The position numbers were made by a program, and so were the translations under genes. Below, one piece after another: positions 3,921 to 49,737 of a stretch of 64,000 nt of DNA. The notes beneath the pieces were generated by a model. It searched no databases and was not told the origin of the DNA. It was given only the letters and a program-made list of their open reading frames with translations. Source of the stretch: Clostridiales bacterium (GTDB taxonomy: Bacteria; Bacillota; Clostridia; Lachnospirales; Lachnospiraceae). The stretch lies in the NCBI GenBank assembly GCA_021201535.1, contig JAJQEU010000047.1:1-64000 (forward strand), in the 5' to 3' direction. Every line of letters begins with the position of its first letter. Positions within the stretch are counted from its first letter, which is position 1.

Positions 3921-4059
3921 AACGAAGGATTGTGAGTGCTGACAGCGATTGCGGGAGTGCGAAGCACGGGAGACATCGACTTTTATAGATCGTAATGACT
4001 GCGGAGCTACTCATTTTCGTTCACTTGGAAATGATTATATATTTTTGCTGAGAAAACAC

Positions 4060-9036: not shown

Positions 9037-9097
9037 AGATGTTGGCGCACTGCGACAGCAGTGCATGTCCATTTAAAAAGTAACGGGAGGTGTTAAC

Positions 9098-11761: not shown

Positions 11762-12112
11762 ATGGAAGAGAATTTACTGAATATTCCGGAGAAAACAGCA
11801 GATACGGGAGATTCCTGCAGCTGCTGTGAGTCCTGCAAGACAAAGGAGCGCTCTCCGGAAGAGTATCGGAGTCTGATGAACCGCCTGAGCCGCATCGAGG
11901 GACAGGTACGCGGCGTGAAGGGCATGATCGAGCGGGATGCTTACTGCGTAGATATCCTGAACCAGGTGTCTGCGATTAATTCCGCGCTGAACAGTTTTAA
12001 TAAAGAACTTTTGGGGAATCATATACGCAGCTGTGTGGTGGAGAACGTGCGGTCCGGCAATGATGAGATCATTGACGAGCTCGTAAAGACCATACAGAAA
12101 TTAATGAAATGA
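11762..12112 (+). CDS. csoR: CsoR-family copper-sensing repressor
   Basis: This 116-aa protein belongs to the CsoR/FrmR (DUF156) family. The Cu(I) ligands typical of CsoR are present with the right spacing: Cys62 (AYCVDIL), His87 (GNHIRSC) and Cys91. The segment RLSRIEGQVRGVKGMIERD is the family N-terminal helix. Oddly, residues 20-26 add a cluster CSCCESC before the core, a possible extra metal site. The gene lies between a CsoR-like operator and copA, so it probably represses copA until copper binds. The ATG follows AAAAGGAAAATCG. Confidence 0.92.
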   Translation: MEENLLNIPEKTADTGDSCSCCESCKTKERSPEEYRSLMNRLSRIEGQVRGVKGMIERDAYCVDILNQVSAINSALNSFNKELLGNHIRSCVVENVRSGNDEIIDELVKTIQKLMK

Positions 12113-12122
12113 TGATATAAGG

Positions 12123-12196
12123 GACAAAAGGTCAGAAATCGGATGCTCGCATCCGTATTTCCGGATTTGGGGTCTGTAGTGTCATACCCTTTTGTC
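12123..12196. repeat. branched palindromic element between csoR and copA
   Basis: Outer arms GACAAAAGG (12123-12131) and CCTTTTGTC (12188-12196) enclose GGATG-CTCG-CATCC (12141-12154) flanked by AAATC/GGATTT. The element lies inside the operon, so the RNA could shape csoR:copA expression or stability. No T run follows the whole structure. Confidence 0.55.
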
Positions 12197-12231
12197 GCCC
12201 GAATCATAAACTAAAACAAGGAGTAAATTTT

Positions 12232-14922
12232 ATGGAACAATATTCAGTGACCGGCATGAGCTGCGCGGCCTGCAGCGCCCATGTGGAGAAAGCCGTGCAG
12301 AAGGTGCCGGGCGTGACGGACGTGGCAGTCAGCCTGCTGACGAACTCCATGCGTGTGGATGGCACCGCGTCTTCAAAGGAAATCATTGATGCGGTCATGG
12401 CCGCGGGTTACGGGGCTTCGCTGAAAGGGAAGGAATCCTCCGGCACAAATGCAGAAGTTAATGAGGAAGCGCTCGCGGACCACGAGACGCCAAAGCTTCT
12501 GAAACGTCTCATCGTTTCCGTGGTGATCCTGTTGCCGCTGATGTATGTCTCAATGGGTCATATGATGTGGAACTGGCCGCTACCGGCCGCCATGGAGGGA
12601 AATCATATCGCGATGGGGCTTTATGAGATGCTTCTCACGATCCTGATCATGGTGATCAATCAGAAGTTTTTTGTCAACGGATTTACCAGCCTGCTGCGTC
12701 GTTCACCGAACATGGATACTCTGGTCGCCATGGGTTCGGCTGCGTCTTTTGCCTACAGTACCTACGCACTCTTTGCCATGACCGGCGCGCAGCTCCGGAT
12801 GGACATGGATGCCGTGATGACCTATATGGATGAGTTTTATTTTGAATCAGCGGCCATGATCCTGACACTGATCACCATCGGGAAGACGCTGGAGGCATAT
12901 TCCAAGGGGAAGACGACGAATGCACTGCGCGGCCTGATGCAGCTGGCGCCGAAGACGGCCCATGTCATCCGAAATGGTACGGAGGAGACGATCTCCGTCG
13001 ATCAGGTTCAGATCGGAGATGTTTTTGTGGTTCGTCCTGGCGAGAGTATCCCCGTGGACGGCGTTGTGCTCGAGGGGATCAGCGCCGTGGACGAGGCGGC
13101 GCTGACCGGCGAGAGCATTCCGGTGGACAAGGAAGAGGGAAGCACTGTCTCGGCGGCGACCATGAATCAGTCAGGATTTCTAAAATGCAGAGCTGTCCGC
13201 GTCGGAGAAGATACCGTTCTCTCACAGATCATTCAGATGGTCAGCGACGCGGCGGCGACAAAAGCACCGATCGCAAAGGTGGCAGATCGGGTGTCCGGTA
13301 TTTTTGTACCGTCCGTACTTCTGATTGCAGCGGCGACTTTCGTCATCTGGCTGCTGGTCGGGCAGACGTTCGGATTCTCCCTGGCCAGAGCGGTTTCCGT
13401 CCTTGTGATCAGCTGTCCCTGCGCGCTGGGTCTGGCGACTCCGGTGGCGATCATGGTCGGCAATGGCGTCGGAGCCAGAAACGGCGTCCTGTTTAAGACA
13501 GCGCTTTCTCTGGAGGAGACCGGGAAGATCGATATTGTAGCGATGGACAAGACCGGAACGATCACGACCGGGAAACCAAAGGTGACGGACGTCCTGCCGG
13601 TGGTGCCGGCACAGACAAAAAGAAGTGGGATAAAGGAGACGGAGATATATAAAAACCGAAGTATTGATGACGGAAGTGTTGAAACGACAGGGAGAGAATC
13701 ACAGGATACCGCGGAGTATGAGCGTGCGAAACAGGAGCTGCTGAGAATCGCTTATGCTCTGGAACAGAAGAGTGAACATCCTCTGGCACGGGCGATCGTA
13801 GAATATGCGGAAGAAAACGGACTGACCGCAGCGGCGGCGGAGGAGTTTCAGGCGGTTGTCGGCAACGGACTGACCGGTCTGTGGAACGGCGTGCGTCTCT
13901 ATGCCGGCAGCCAGAAATACATTTCTTCCGTCGCACCGATTCCGGACAGGATCAGACAACAGGCGTCTGATTTGGCGGAACAGGGAAAGACTCCCCTGTT
14001 TTTTGTAAAAGATCAGACTGTCTGCGGGATGATCGCCGTGGCGGATGTGATGAAGGAAGAAGCCCCGGAAACGATCCGCCAGCTCCACGGGATGGGGATC
14101 CGGGTGGTCATGCTGACCGGCGACAATATCCGCACCGCGCGGGCCATCGGTGCACAGGCGGGCGTCGATCATGTCATCGCGGATGTTCTGCCGGGCGATA
14201 AGGAGACTGTGATCCGCAGACTTTCTGAAAAAGGAAAGGTCGCCATGGTGGGCGACGGCATCAACGATGCCCCTGCACTGACGCGGGCGGACATCGGCAT
14301 TGCCATCGGCGCCGGTACGGATATCGCATTGGATGCGGCGGACGTGGTTCTGGTTAAAAGCAATCTGGACGATGTGCCGACCGCGATCCGGCTCAGCAGG
14401 CGGGTGCTCCGGAATATCCATGAGAATCTGTTCTGGGCATTCTTTTATAATATCATCGGCATTCCGCTTGCAGCCGGCGCATGGTATTATCTGTTTGGAT
14501 TAAAGCTGAATCCGATGTTCGGCGCAGCGGCCATGAGCTTATCCAGCTTCTGCGTCGTCATGAACGCGCTGCGTCTGAATTTTATAAAGGTTCACAGCAC
14601 ACACCGGGACAAACAAAAAAGACATGCGATATCAGACAGCCTGTTTGAAGAACTCTTCGGCGGACAGGATGATATGAATACAACACAAAACAGGAAGGAG
14701 GAGACAGAACCCATGACAAAGACCATCGAGATTCAGGGTATGATGTGCGGACACTGTGAGAAGCATGTCAAAAATGCGCTGGAGGCGCTCGACGGCGTGA
14801 CACAGGCGGAGGCCAGTCACGAGAAAGGCACCGCTATTGTGACGCTGAGCGCGGATGTGACGGATGACGTGCTGAAAAAAGCGGTGGAGGACGCGGATTA
14901 TGAGGTGATCGCGATCCGCTGA
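12232..14922 (+). CDS. copA: Copper-exporting P1B-type ATPase with fused C-terminal CopZ-like domain
   Basis: CopA pumps Cu(I) out of the cell. The 896-aa protein has an N-terminal HMA domain (GMSCAAC near residue 8), about eight membrane segments, the actuator motif TGES (about 291), the CPC copper site in ISCPCALG (about 395), the phosphorylated Asp in DKTGTITTG (about 440), SEHPLA, and GDGINDAP (about 674). After the last membrane segment a linker leads to a second HMA domain (residues 828-896, GMMCGHC). A C-terminal HMA is uncommon in bacterial CopA and resembles a fused CopZ chaperone. A linker of about 30 polar residues (TKRSGIKETEIYKNRSIDD) follows the phosphorylation site. AAGGAGTAAATTTT precedes the start. 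Confidence 0.95.
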   Translation: MEQYSVTGMSCAACSAHVEKAVQKVPGVTDVAVSLLTNSMRVDGTASSKEIIDAVMAAGYGASLKGKESSGTNAEVNEEALADHETPKLLKRLIVSVVILLPLMYVSMGHMMWNWPLPAAMEGNHIAMGLYEMLLTILIMVINQKFFVNGFTSLLRRSPNMDTLVAMGSAASFAYSTYALFAMTGAQLRMDMDAVMTYMDEFYFESAAMILTLITIGKTLEAYSKGKTTNALRGLMQLAPKTAHVIRNGTEETISVDQVQIGDVFVVRPGESIPVDGVVLEGISAVDEAALTGESIPVDKEEGSTVSAATMNQSGFLKCRAVRVGEDTVLSQIIQMVSDAAATKAPIAKVADRVSGIFVPSVLLIAAATFVIWLLVGQTFGFSLARAVSVLVISCPCALGLATPVAIMVGNGVGARNGVLFKTALSLEETGKIDIVAMDKTGTITTGKPKVTDVLPVVPAQTKRSGIKETEIYKNRSIDDGSVETTGRESQDTAEYERAKQELLRIAYALEQKSEHPLARAIVEYAEENGLTAAAAEEFQAVVGNGLTGLWNGVRLYAGSQKYISSVAPIPDRIRQQASDLAEQGKTPLFFVKDQTVCGMIAVADVMKEEAPETIRQLHGMGIRVVMLTGDNIRTARAIGAQAGVDHVIADVLPGDKETVIRRLSEKGKVAMVGDGINDAPALTRADIGIAIGAGTDIALDAADVVLVKSNLDDVPTAIRLSRRVLRNIHENLFWAFFYNIIGIPLAAGAWYYLFGLKLNPMFGAAAMSLSSFCVVMNALRLNFIKVHSTHRDKQKRHAISDSLFEELFGGQDDMNTTQNRKEETEPMTKTIEIQGMMCGHCEKHVKNALEALDGVTQAEASHEKGTAIVTLSADVTDDVLKKAVEDADYEVIAIR
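14713..14922 (+). CDS. Possible internally initiated CopZ-like copper chaperone
   Basis: Inside copA and in frame, an ATG at 14713 is preceded by GGAAGGAGG (14693-14701, 11 nt spacing), a much stronger ribosome site than expected inside a gene. Translation from it would give a free 69-aa HMA protein starting MTKTIEIQGMMCGHCEKH, the size and motif of CopZ. This is inferred from sequence; the fused domain is certain, the separate product is not. Confidence 0.4.
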   Translation: MTKTIEIQGMMCGHCEKHVKNALEALDGVTQAEASHEKGTAIVTLSADVTDDVLKKAVEDADYEVIAIR

Positions 14923-47337: not shown

Positions 47338-47420
47338 TTATGCATACCTCCTTTTCTTTAATAGTAGTATGGACATATCAGCCGGTTTTATACCGCTGTT
47401 ATGCATATGAAAGGGAAAAT

Positions 47421-48824
47421 ATGAAAAGAAAGCAGAAAAAGAATATACTGCGCTATCGAAGACAGTTTCATATCAATATCGGAGTGATTGTATTTGCGTT
47501 CGTTCTGGTTTACTTTCTGATTTATTTTTTTAATTATATGACGAGCAGCCATGTTTCCATCTATGAGGTCCAGAAGGGTCAGATTATGAAGACGTCGTAT
47601 TACACAGGTCTGATCCTGCGTTCTGAAACCGTGACTTACGCAGAGGAGACAGGGAAGATCAACTACTACAGCAAAGAGGGAGACAAGGCGGGATATAACG
47701 ACCTGGTCTGTTCTATCGACCGGGAAGGTTCTGTGTCCGATGAGATTACGGCAGCCGGACTGGATGGAACGACGCTGACCAAGGATGAGCTTCTGGAAGT
47801 TCAGGAGCTGGTGACGGATTTCACATCCAACTACTCCGCGACACAGTTTTATAACGTGTATTCTTTTTCTCAAAATCTGAACGCCAGCGTGCAGGAAAAT
47901 CTTTACCTGGCCGCCCTGGAACAGCTGTCGGGCGAAACGCTGACCTCCTTTTCACTGATCCGTGCGCAGACGGACGGCATACTCGCGTTTTATACGGATG
48001 GCTATGAAAATGTAACGCCGGACACGTTTTCCCCTGATATGTATCAGGCATCCGAATATCAGAAAAACAATCTGAAATTCAATACTTCCGTATCCTCCGG
48101 ACAGGCTCTCTACAAAACAGTCACCGATGAGGACTGGTATATGATGATTCCTCTCGATGAGGATGAGGCGGCGCTGTATCAGGCTGAGATGGAAGAGGAT
48201 GAAGATACCTTTACGATCCTTGTCACCTTCCAAAAGGATCAGGCTCAGGCCTACGCGACGGCGTCCATCCGTTCTTATGATTCCGGATATTTTCTTGAGC
48301 TTAAGTTTAACAGTTCCATGGTACGCTATATTTCGGAACGCTATATGGAAGTGGAGCTCGGATCCAATGATGAGAGCGGTTTAAAGATTCCGAATTCCTC
48401 CATCACACAGAAAGAATTCCTGCTGATTCCGGAGGATTATATCAGCCAGGGCGGCAGCACGACTGATAAGGGTGTACTCAAAGTGACATCGGATAAGCAG
48501 GGCAATGAATCGGTTGAGTTTGTCAGCACCACCGTCTATGCTACGGATGAGGACGGATACTGTTATATTGATGAGGATGATCTTGCCCTGGGCGACACGC
48601 TGCAGATGACAGATTCATCCGACCGGTATGTGATCCGGGAGACCGGAGAGCTGAGCGGCGTCTACAATATGAACAAAGGATATGCCGTATTTAAACTGAT
48701 CGATGTGATCACGTCGAATGAAGAATACACGATCGTAAATACGGGCACCAGCTATGGTCTTTCTCTGTATGACCGCATCGCACTGGACGGTGATTCCATC
48801 TCGGAGGGAGAGTTTGCAAACTAA
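47421..48824 (+). CDS. HlyD-like membrane-anchored protein near sepF
   Basis: The 467-aa protein has a basic N-terminus, one membrane segment (VIVFAFVLVYFLIYFFNYM, about 20-38) and a long outside domain. The segment YEVQKGQIMKTSYYTGLILRS (quoted as YEVQKGQIMK and GLILRSETV) resembles HlyD/RND adaptor beta-barrel repeats, and a C-terminal barrel part contains VSTTVYATDEDGYCYID and LGDTL. It lacks an adjoining exporter gene. Similar genes sit before yggS-sepF in other Lachnospiraceae, which suggests a link to division or envelope assembly (inference). The ATG at 47421 has only AAAGGGAAAAT upstream. Confidence 0.75.
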   Translation: MKRKQKKNILRYRRQFHINIGVIVFAFVLVYFLIYFFNYMTSSHVSIYEVQKGQIMKTSYYTGLILRSETVTYAEETGKINYYSKEGDKAGYNDLVCSIDREGSVSDEITAAGLDGTTLTKDELLEVQELVTDFTSNYSATQFYNVYSFSQNLNASVQENLYLAALEQLSGETLTSFSLIRAQTDGILAFYTDGYENVTPDTFSPDMYQASEYQKNNLKFNTSVSSGQALYKTVTDEDWYMMIPLDEDEAALYQAEMEEDEDTFTILVTFQKDQAQAYATASIRSYDSGYFLELKFNSSMVRYISERYMEVELGSNDESGLKIPNSSITQKEFLLIPEDYISQGGSTTDKGVLKVTSDKQGNESVEFVSTTVYATDEDGYCYIDEDDLALGDTLQMTDSSDRYVIRETGELSGVYNMNKGYAVFKLIDVITSNEEYTIVNTGTSYGLSLYDRIALDGDSISEGEFAN

Positions 48825-48830
48825 AGGTCT

Positions 48831-48994
48831 TGTTCACGACCCGACGGAATCCGATAACAGACTTGTCGTGCCTGCACGTAAGAGGCTGTTATCGGATTCC
48901 GACGAGTCCTGTGAAACAGGACCTCCACCCACATAAGCAATTTCAGCACGTTTTTTGTGCTGAAATTGCGCATGCGAGCGGAGGGTCGTGAACA
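48831..48994. repeat. three-armed cloverleaf element with terminal inverted repeats
   Basis: A closing stem TGTTCACGACCC (48831-48842) / GGGTCGTGAACA (48983-48994) is perfect over 12 bp. Inside lie three hairpins. The first is CGGAATCCGATAACAG (48845-48860) with CTGTTATCGGATTCCG (48886-48901), a perfect 16 bp. The second is GTCCTGT-GAA-ACAGGAC (with GAA loop; 48906-48922). The third is GCAATTTCAGCAC / GTGCTGAAATTGC (48937-48969). It fills almost the whole gap between the HlyD-like gene and yggS. No ORF, no T run. It could be a miniature mobile element or a structured RNA. Confidence 0.85.
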
Positions 48995-49026
48995 TGTAAA
49001 CAGTATGATTCAGGAGGTATCTATCC

Positions 49027-49737
49027 ATGGTGAAAGAAAATCTGACAGAAGTTGAACAACGGATTCAGGCAGCCTGCAGACGCGCAGGTCGCGACCGCAG
49101 CGAGGTCACCCTGATCGCCGTGAGCAAGACCAAGCCCGTTCCGATGCTTGAGGAAGCCTATCAGTGCGGGATCCGCGAATTCGGAGAAAATAAAGTACAG
49201 GAGATGATGGACAAATACGAAGTCATGCCGCAGGATATCCGCTGGCATATGATCGGGCATCTCCAGAGAAACAAAGTAAAATATCTGATGGGAAAGGCAT
49301 ATCTGATCCACTCCGTGGATTCGCTGCGGCTCGCGGAGGAGATCAGTGCACAGTCCGTCAAACATCAGGTGCAGACCAATATCCTGATTGAGGTCAATAT
49401 TGCCGGCGAAGAGTCAAAGTTCGGTATTTCCGGGGAAGAAACCCTCCGGCTTGTTATAGCGGCAGCCGCCCTCCCCAACATCCATGTGAAAGGCCTGATG
49501 ACGATTGCACCTTTTGTCGACAATCCGGAAGACAACCGGGTATATTTTCAAAAAATCAGGGAATTATCTGTTGACATTGGCTGTAAAAAAATAGATAATG
49601 TAGACATGCATATTCTTTCCATGGGTATGACGGGAGACTATGAGGTTGCCATTGAAGAGGGTGCGACCCACATTCGTGTGGGGACCGGTATATTTGGCGA
49701 GAGAGATTACAACAGGAACGGATCATTTCAGATGTAA
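49027..49737 (+). CDS. yggS: YggS family PLP homeostasis protein
   Basis: YggS (YlmE/PLPBP) is a single-domain PLP-binding protein that balances pyridoxal phosphate and amino-acid pools. The 236-aa protein has the PLP lysine in LIAVSKTKP, FGENKVQEMMDK, WHMIGHLQRNK, VNIAGEESKFG and the final SMGMTGDYEVAIEEGATHIRVG (split here: SMGMTGDYEVAIEEG, THIRVGTGIFG). CAGGAGGTATCTATCC precedes the ATG. It lies directly before sepF as usual. Confidence 0.96.
   Translation: MVKENLTEVEQRIQAACRRAGRDRSEVTLIAVSKTKPVPMLEEAYQCGIREFGENKVQEMMDKYEVMPQDIRWHMIGHLQRNKVKYLMGKAYLIHSVDSLRLAEEISAQSVKHQVQTNILIEVNIAGEESKFGISGEETLRLVIAAAALPNIHVKGLMTIAPFVDNPEDNRVYFQKIRELSVDIGCKKIDNVDMHILSMGMTGDYEVAIEEGATHIRVGTGIFGERDYNRNGSFQM

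Follow-up and report, generated by a model that had tools for sequence, protein, structure and literature searches.

The DNA analysed here, a stretch of 64,000 nucleotides from a Clostridiales bacterium of the Lachnospiraceae (the window, whose position 1 is also position 1 of its contig), carries on its + strand a gene of the HlyD_2 family (47340-48824) followed by yggS (start at 49027), with sepF and lspA-type genes downstream of yggS. The spacer between the hlyD-like gene and yggS holds a cloverleaf element of 174 bases (approximately 48826-48999, an extent derived from homologous copies and a covariance model), which begins 1 bp past the stop of the former gene, ends 27 bp before the start of the latter and lies in the sense direction relative to both, all three being co-directional. 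Folded as DNA, positions 48831-48994 reach -57.8 kcal/mol as against -22.5 +/- 3.3 kcal/mol for shuffled sequences (z = -10.7), an energy matched by 0 of 200 dinucleotide shuffles. The closing stem, TGTTCACGACCC / GGGTCGTGAACA, consists of 12 complementary bases, 11 of which pair in the minimum free energy fold, and its two arms (48831-48842 and 48983-48994) are at the same time the left and right terminal inverted repeats, the left one having drifted from the family consensus GTTACTATTCACAG. Arm 1 (48845-48901) is a perfect 16-bp stem (48845-48860 / 48886-48901), hypervariable yet paired in relatives, and is topped by a small conserved hairpin with the apical motif TGTCGTGCCTGCACGTAAGA (48864-48883), which it has in common with two further copies from the same genome (L003 and L005) and with those of G017, a related genome. 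Arm 2 (48906-48922) is a 7-bp stem with a GAA loop (GTCCTGT GAA ACAGGAC; 48906-48912 / 48916-48922), and arm 3 (48923-48983), reading CTCCACCCACATAAGCAATT...ATTGCGCATG...GGAG, has an inner stem of 13-14 bp (48937-48950 / 48956-48969) along with short outer stems, its flanks CACATAAGCAA / TTGCGCATG recurring in nearly all aligned copies. A preliminary description of the locus had reported a three-armed cloverleaf at 48831-48994 that is not a tRNA; the closing stem and all three arms are indeed present there, the true unit being slightly wider than that extent, and ARAGORN calls no tRNA or tmRNA gene in 48700-49100.

At gathering thresholds Rfam returns no match for the window copy, while at relaxed thresholds the Clostridiales-1 model (RF01699) aligns with it over its full length (model positions 1-166 of 166) at 27.3 bits. 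Since this score misses the gathering threshold of 48 bits, the element is not filed under RF01699, and it is a divergent but plainly related relative rather than a member. Both have a closing stem, a long arm 1 ending in a conserved apical hairpin, an arm 2 and one additional arm, and both occur in many copies in Lachnospiraceae, this genome included, whereas the sequences of the ends, arm 2 and arm 3 of the window copy differ from those of Clostridiales-1. The genome itself (2.77 Mb in 128 contigs) contains 42 matches to RF01699, 23 of them over the cut-off, and its copy L005 scores 47.1 bits. Matches at E <= 0.001 are found in 33 of 61 related genomes, namely in 19 of 20 within the genus (the exception being G013), 12 of 17 that belong to the family but not to the genus, and 2 of 24 that belong to the order but not to the family. 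Sub-threshold Rfam hits to microRNA models on arm 3 and on L005 were taken as chance hairpin matches and set aside.

The window copy falls in a sub-family, designated type A here, with the conserved blocks TTCAC, TCGTC..G / C..GTAAGA (the apex), CTGTGAA.CAGG, the two arm-3 flanks and GTGAA. A covariance model built from 17 other copies, the window copy being excluded, recovers it over the full model (1-197) with 129.2 bits (E 1.5e-33), as a complete but old copy that is otherwise ordinary within its family. Type-A matches number 24 in G017, 19 in G018, 12 in G007 and 8 in the genome of the window; the type occurs mainly in this genus and sporadically in four other genera, the nearest named records being unclassified Lachnospiraceae and Clostridiales MAGs. 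The family came to light with the help of the apex motif GTCGYGCNNGCRCGTAAGA and of covariance models. A search of the genome for close DNA copies nearly missed it, and a search for the ends of the window copy, which the preliminary description had proposed, found no other copy of TGTTCACGACCC, because these ends have drifted. Plasmid and phage records yielded no match to the element, and viral contigs gave only isolated matches of 14-17 bases to its ends.

Better-preserved copies give evidence of mobility. Type-A elements in congeners are units of approximately 196 bp with the ends GTTACTATTCACAG...CTGTGAATAGTAAC, most of them measuring 193-198 bp without inserts. When left and right flanks of 41 end pairs, a few of which are alternative pairings of one locus, are compared at different lags, 8 bp is the only lag to stand above the values from shuffling (identity 44% vs 29%, z 6.7); seven pairs have at least 6 of 8 flank bases equal where approximately 0.36 would be expected. 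One locus (L123) has a perfect 8-bp duplication, AGCCCGCT, and a 48-bp deletion derivative (L196) still retains 7 of 8 duplication bases. Canonical RF01699 copies (in G021, G009, G018 and G027) have inverted-repeat ends of a different sequence, GATACCAGGGTCAA...TTGACCCCAACATC, lengths of 183-210 bp and, in contrast to the 8 bp of type A, 7-bp duplications of the form ATNNNAT, with lag 7 alone standing out (82% vs 61%, z 6.9). Their right inverted repeat lies outside the Rfam model, in G021 approximately 35 bases beyond the point where the Rfam match stops on its 3' side. An initial lag analysis of main-type copies, in which the ends were taken from folds, gave no signal, since true ends cannot be read from the fold. 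The ends of the window copy are degenerate, the repeats having drifted while remaining complementary, and no clear target duplication is visible because the copy is too degenerate; it probably no longer moves.

Comparison of orthologous sites agrees with mobility. In most congeners (G016, G013, G003 and others) the hlyD-like gene and yggS are separated by a short spacer without the element, as the preliminary description had suggested checking. In the closest congener (G010, yggS 96% identical) the site reads AAAGG directly joined to GTTGTGAACATG, which fits a deletion between two AGG triplets (microhomology) that kept most of the right end; because this deletion left the right end behind, the window element probably predates the split from G010. 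A different member of the family occupies the same spacer in G004, flanked by ATCAAAAT, and G015, which is 97% identical to G004, is empty at that insertion site; a further presence/absence difference distinguishes L076 from L078. The spacer between ptsH and ptsI holds three different members or remnants in three species (L163 in G010, L164 in G016 and L003 in the genome of the window), which suggests either preferred insertion spacers or repeated turnover. The frequent lack of an element at the window site is also what would be seen if the cloverleaf were a palindrome that arose by chance between two genes, but a fold energy at z -10.7 and the many homologous copies with covariation make coincidence hardly conceivable.

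The fold itself is conserved. An alignment of 18 sequences supports 57 consensus pairs, with 96.9% of cells paired and 31 of the 57 pairs changed on both sides, as the covariation check proposed in the preliminary description had looked for. None of 500 shuffles reaches any of five covariation measures, bearing in mind that shuffles ignore relatedness, and slid structures are 30-43% paired, a control that somewhat favours the structure, as the consensus was derived from the tested alignment. Covariation is centred on arm 1, where 20 of 21 pairs have changed on both sides in relatives, while 6 of 15 pairs in the end stem never vary. Folding of 41 canonical copies gives three arms in 38, and 31 of these 38 carry the CUUG-type loop GCTTGC at the arm-1 apex. 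The preliminary description had named the lack of any other copy and of covariation as what would leave only a chance structure; copies and covariation have both been found.

Such covariation need not reflect selection on the structure. In a miniature inverted-repeat transposable element (MITE), template-switch (quasipalindrome) correction could transfer changes from either arm to its partner, and the frequent swapping of arm-1 pairs by double transversions (for example C-G 10, G-C 6) with few unpaired cells is of the kind this would produce. One-sided changes and mismatches between the near-identical copies L107 and L117 argue against it, as does the sequence conservation of the short arm 2 and of the apex motif, for which correction alone does not account; we regard this origin of the pairing as unlikely.

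The fold could alternatively be that of a structured non-coding RNA, the copies being paralogous RNA genes or mRNA-borne regulatory or stability elements whose mobility is incidental. The strong covariation, above all in arm 1, the CUUG-type apex and the sense placement of the window copy, tightly fitted between co-directional genes, speak for this, and the RNA status of Clostridiales-1 has been put forward before: it is entered as probably RNA and probably not cis-regulatory among the candidates of Weinberg et al. 2010 (PMC2864571). The exact inverted-repeat ends, the 7-8-bp target duplications and the absence from orthologous sites argue against it, as does the canonical right inverted repeat, which lies beyond the Rfam model. 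A search around the window copy found neither a promoter-like site nor, on the sense strand, a terminator-like one, the lone terminator-like match there being on the - strand and within chance expectation. Young copies also occur in both orientations. Of the copies located between tandem genes in G017 and G007, 8 are sense and 7 antisense; with the type-A copies of the window's own genome that have called neighbours (5 of 5 sense), this gives 13 sense to 7 antisense (p 0.26), ORF-based counts in short flanks having been left out as unreliable.

The loops bear on the same question. GNRA is the tetraloop form favoured by RNA, whereas in DNA great stability is known for GNA triloops and for GNNA loops with a C-G closing pair. 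Arm-2 GNNA tetraloops have a pyrimidine as third base in 17 of 19 cases, being mostly C-GNYA-G rather than GNRA, and canonical arm-3 loops are mostly C-GNA-G with any of the four bases in the middle. Loop types and unbiased orientation together lean towards a fold that acts in DNA, a lean and not proof because the copies share ancestry. An RNA serving as the primary identity of the family is rather improbable, and of the structured-RNA reading offered in the preliminary description the conserved fold stands while the RNA gene is unsupported. Retained copies may nonetheless have a role in RNA, the five type-A copies of this genome with called neighbours all being sense, and the window copy is probably carried in the hlyD-like/yggS/sepF transcript.

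The feature is very probably a gene-less, MITE-like DNA transposon of the non-autonomous kind, approximately 175-198 bp long and present here as an old copy, the best explanation because of the inverted-repeat ends, the target duplications and the absence from orthologous sites. Its mobile-element interpretation, the other one offered in the preliminary description, accordingly gains from the additional copies, the terminal inverted repeats, the 7-8-bp duplications, the site absence and the nested insertions, and it does not exclude the structured fold, because the structure is also conserved by covariation; fold and mobility are both supported. As in bacterial MITEs generally, the elements are shorter than 250 bp, lack an ORF, have terminal inverted repeats and a target duplication, lie in intergenic DNA and show nested insertions and deletion derivatives (down to the 48-bp derivative), and at the level of the family there are sharp inverted-repeat ends, duplications of fixed length and presence/absence polymorphism. 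They differ in that no parent transposon has been found and in that covariation and cross-species conservation extend to the internal arms, a trait that is unusual for MITEs and suggests an added function at the level of the fold.

In the proposed mechanism, the two terminal inverted repeats double as the closing stem and bracket the three internal hairpin arms, and a transposase acting in trans would cut at these repeats and insert the element into intergenic DNA by an 8-bp staggered cut, leaving 8-bp target duplications. The combination of inverted repeats and duplications of 7-8 bp is characteristic of DDE-type cut-and-paste transposition, from which we infer that a DDE-type transposase moves the elements; no autonomous partner or transposase ORF was recognised near approximately 40 loci in five genomes, most of them chosen for isolated ends. 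Internal pairing may be kept since the element must fold, and it would more probably do so as DNA, extruded or single-stranded while it moves or is replicated, than as a dedicated RNA gene. More tentatively, Clostridiales-1 and its relatives may form a superfamily of transposable elements whose three-armed fold is selected at the DNA level through structure-dependent mobilisation by a trans-acting transposase; within each type the ends are nearly fixed in sequence while the arms covary, the prevailing loops of arms 2 and 3 are of forms unusually stable in DNA, and both insertion orientations occur.

An HUH (Y1) transposase that moves the element in single-stranded form, as for REP/RAYT or IS200/IS605-like elements, would also suit hairpin-rich intergenic repeats, and the genome has a single RAYT/IS200-like Y1_Tnp gene (PF01797; L067, G000:C97:1322-1648). 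HUH single-stranded transposition, that of RAYT elements included, makes no target duplication, however, whereas duplications of 8 bp and 7 bp are seen here along with long terminal inverted repeats, and no copy of the element lies beside the Y1 gene in the stretch inspected, so that this route appears very improbable. REP/BIME sequences with RAYT are likewise intergenic palindromic repeats but differ from the present family, which has target duplications and long inverted repeats and no RAYT association that could be seen. The BOX and RUP elements of Streptococcus pneumoniae, too, are structured repeats in intergenic DNA and are probably mobilised in trans; set against their general description, the window element is unlike them in sequence, host and ends.

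The findings suggest that RF01699 itself is also a jumping element. In Rfam it is classed as 'Gene; sRNA', with a model that lacks the right inverted repeat, and is not described as a transposable element. Full-text literature searches found no paper describing Clostridiales-1 or these elements as mobile, so that to our knowledge the mobile-element reading of Clostridiales-1 is apparently undescribed in the literature searched; a later survey has pointed out that REP sequences or terminators may underlie palindromic RNA candidates (PMC8040213). An entry catalogued as a structured RNA without known function appears to be mobile DNA. This would correct an annotation on which genome and metagenome pipelines draw, and it is a warning that an RNA gene is not established by covariation alone. 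What makes the family interesting is the new reading of an Rfam entry and the question of why its fold persists: hundreds of natural copies keep the three-armed fold while their sequence changes, making a role in DNA or in RNA directly testable.

The window contains further members of the family. An internally deleted type-B element, GATATAAGGGACAAAAGG...CCCTTTTGTCGCCCGAATCAT (12111-12210, + strand), which resembles the ends of L038 and L076, is flanked by a gene whose end is at 12112 and a copA-like P-type ATPase gene whose start is at 12232, and a Clostridiales-1-type remnant consisting of arm 3 and the right end, CGATTGCGGGAGTGCGAAGCACGG...ATCGACTTTTATAGAT, is found at 3925-3992 (+ strand; RF01699 21.4 bits at C40:3869-3987). 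A probable fragment on the - strand (1-52), with the exact type-A end GTTACTATTCACAG at 39-52, is cut by the contig start. Window and contig thus begin inside a probable type-A end, and several contigs of G021 break at such elements too; because of these breaks, the copy numbers given are probably underestimates.

Several small repeats are associated with the elements. The GCTTGC/GCTGGC apex of arm 1 can carry a 45-bp hairpin insert, CAAGGTGAATTGCCGC....GCGGCAAGAGA.GGTGGCCTGGGCCA, which occupies this identical spot in approximately 10 of 12 matches, drawn from several genomes and from two sub-families (carriers include L040, L045, L109, L120, L125, L175 and L195), and resembles a micro-element with the hairpin tip as its target. 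A second micro-insert of approximately 42 bp, AAGTGAGATAGGAAATCT..GATTTCCGTAATCGAACTTATG, lies nested within either arm 3 or arm 1 of the elements and also occurs solitarily elsewhere (L101, L109, L111, L115, L125, L128, L041, L059 and L279), and a third, GCGCAAGATGTCCAGTGGACATCTG.TTTGCGCCGACCG, is located mostly between arm 2 and arm 3 (L108, L112, L115 and L048). The Y1-type transposase gene of the genome is not linked to the cloverleaf elements. A 40-bp hairpin repeat, ATGTTGGCGCGCTGCGACAGCAGCGCATGGAAGTTTA, present in the window at 9038-9080 and at 40 places in the genome, often lies directly 3' of Clostridiales-1-type copies and also occurs alone.
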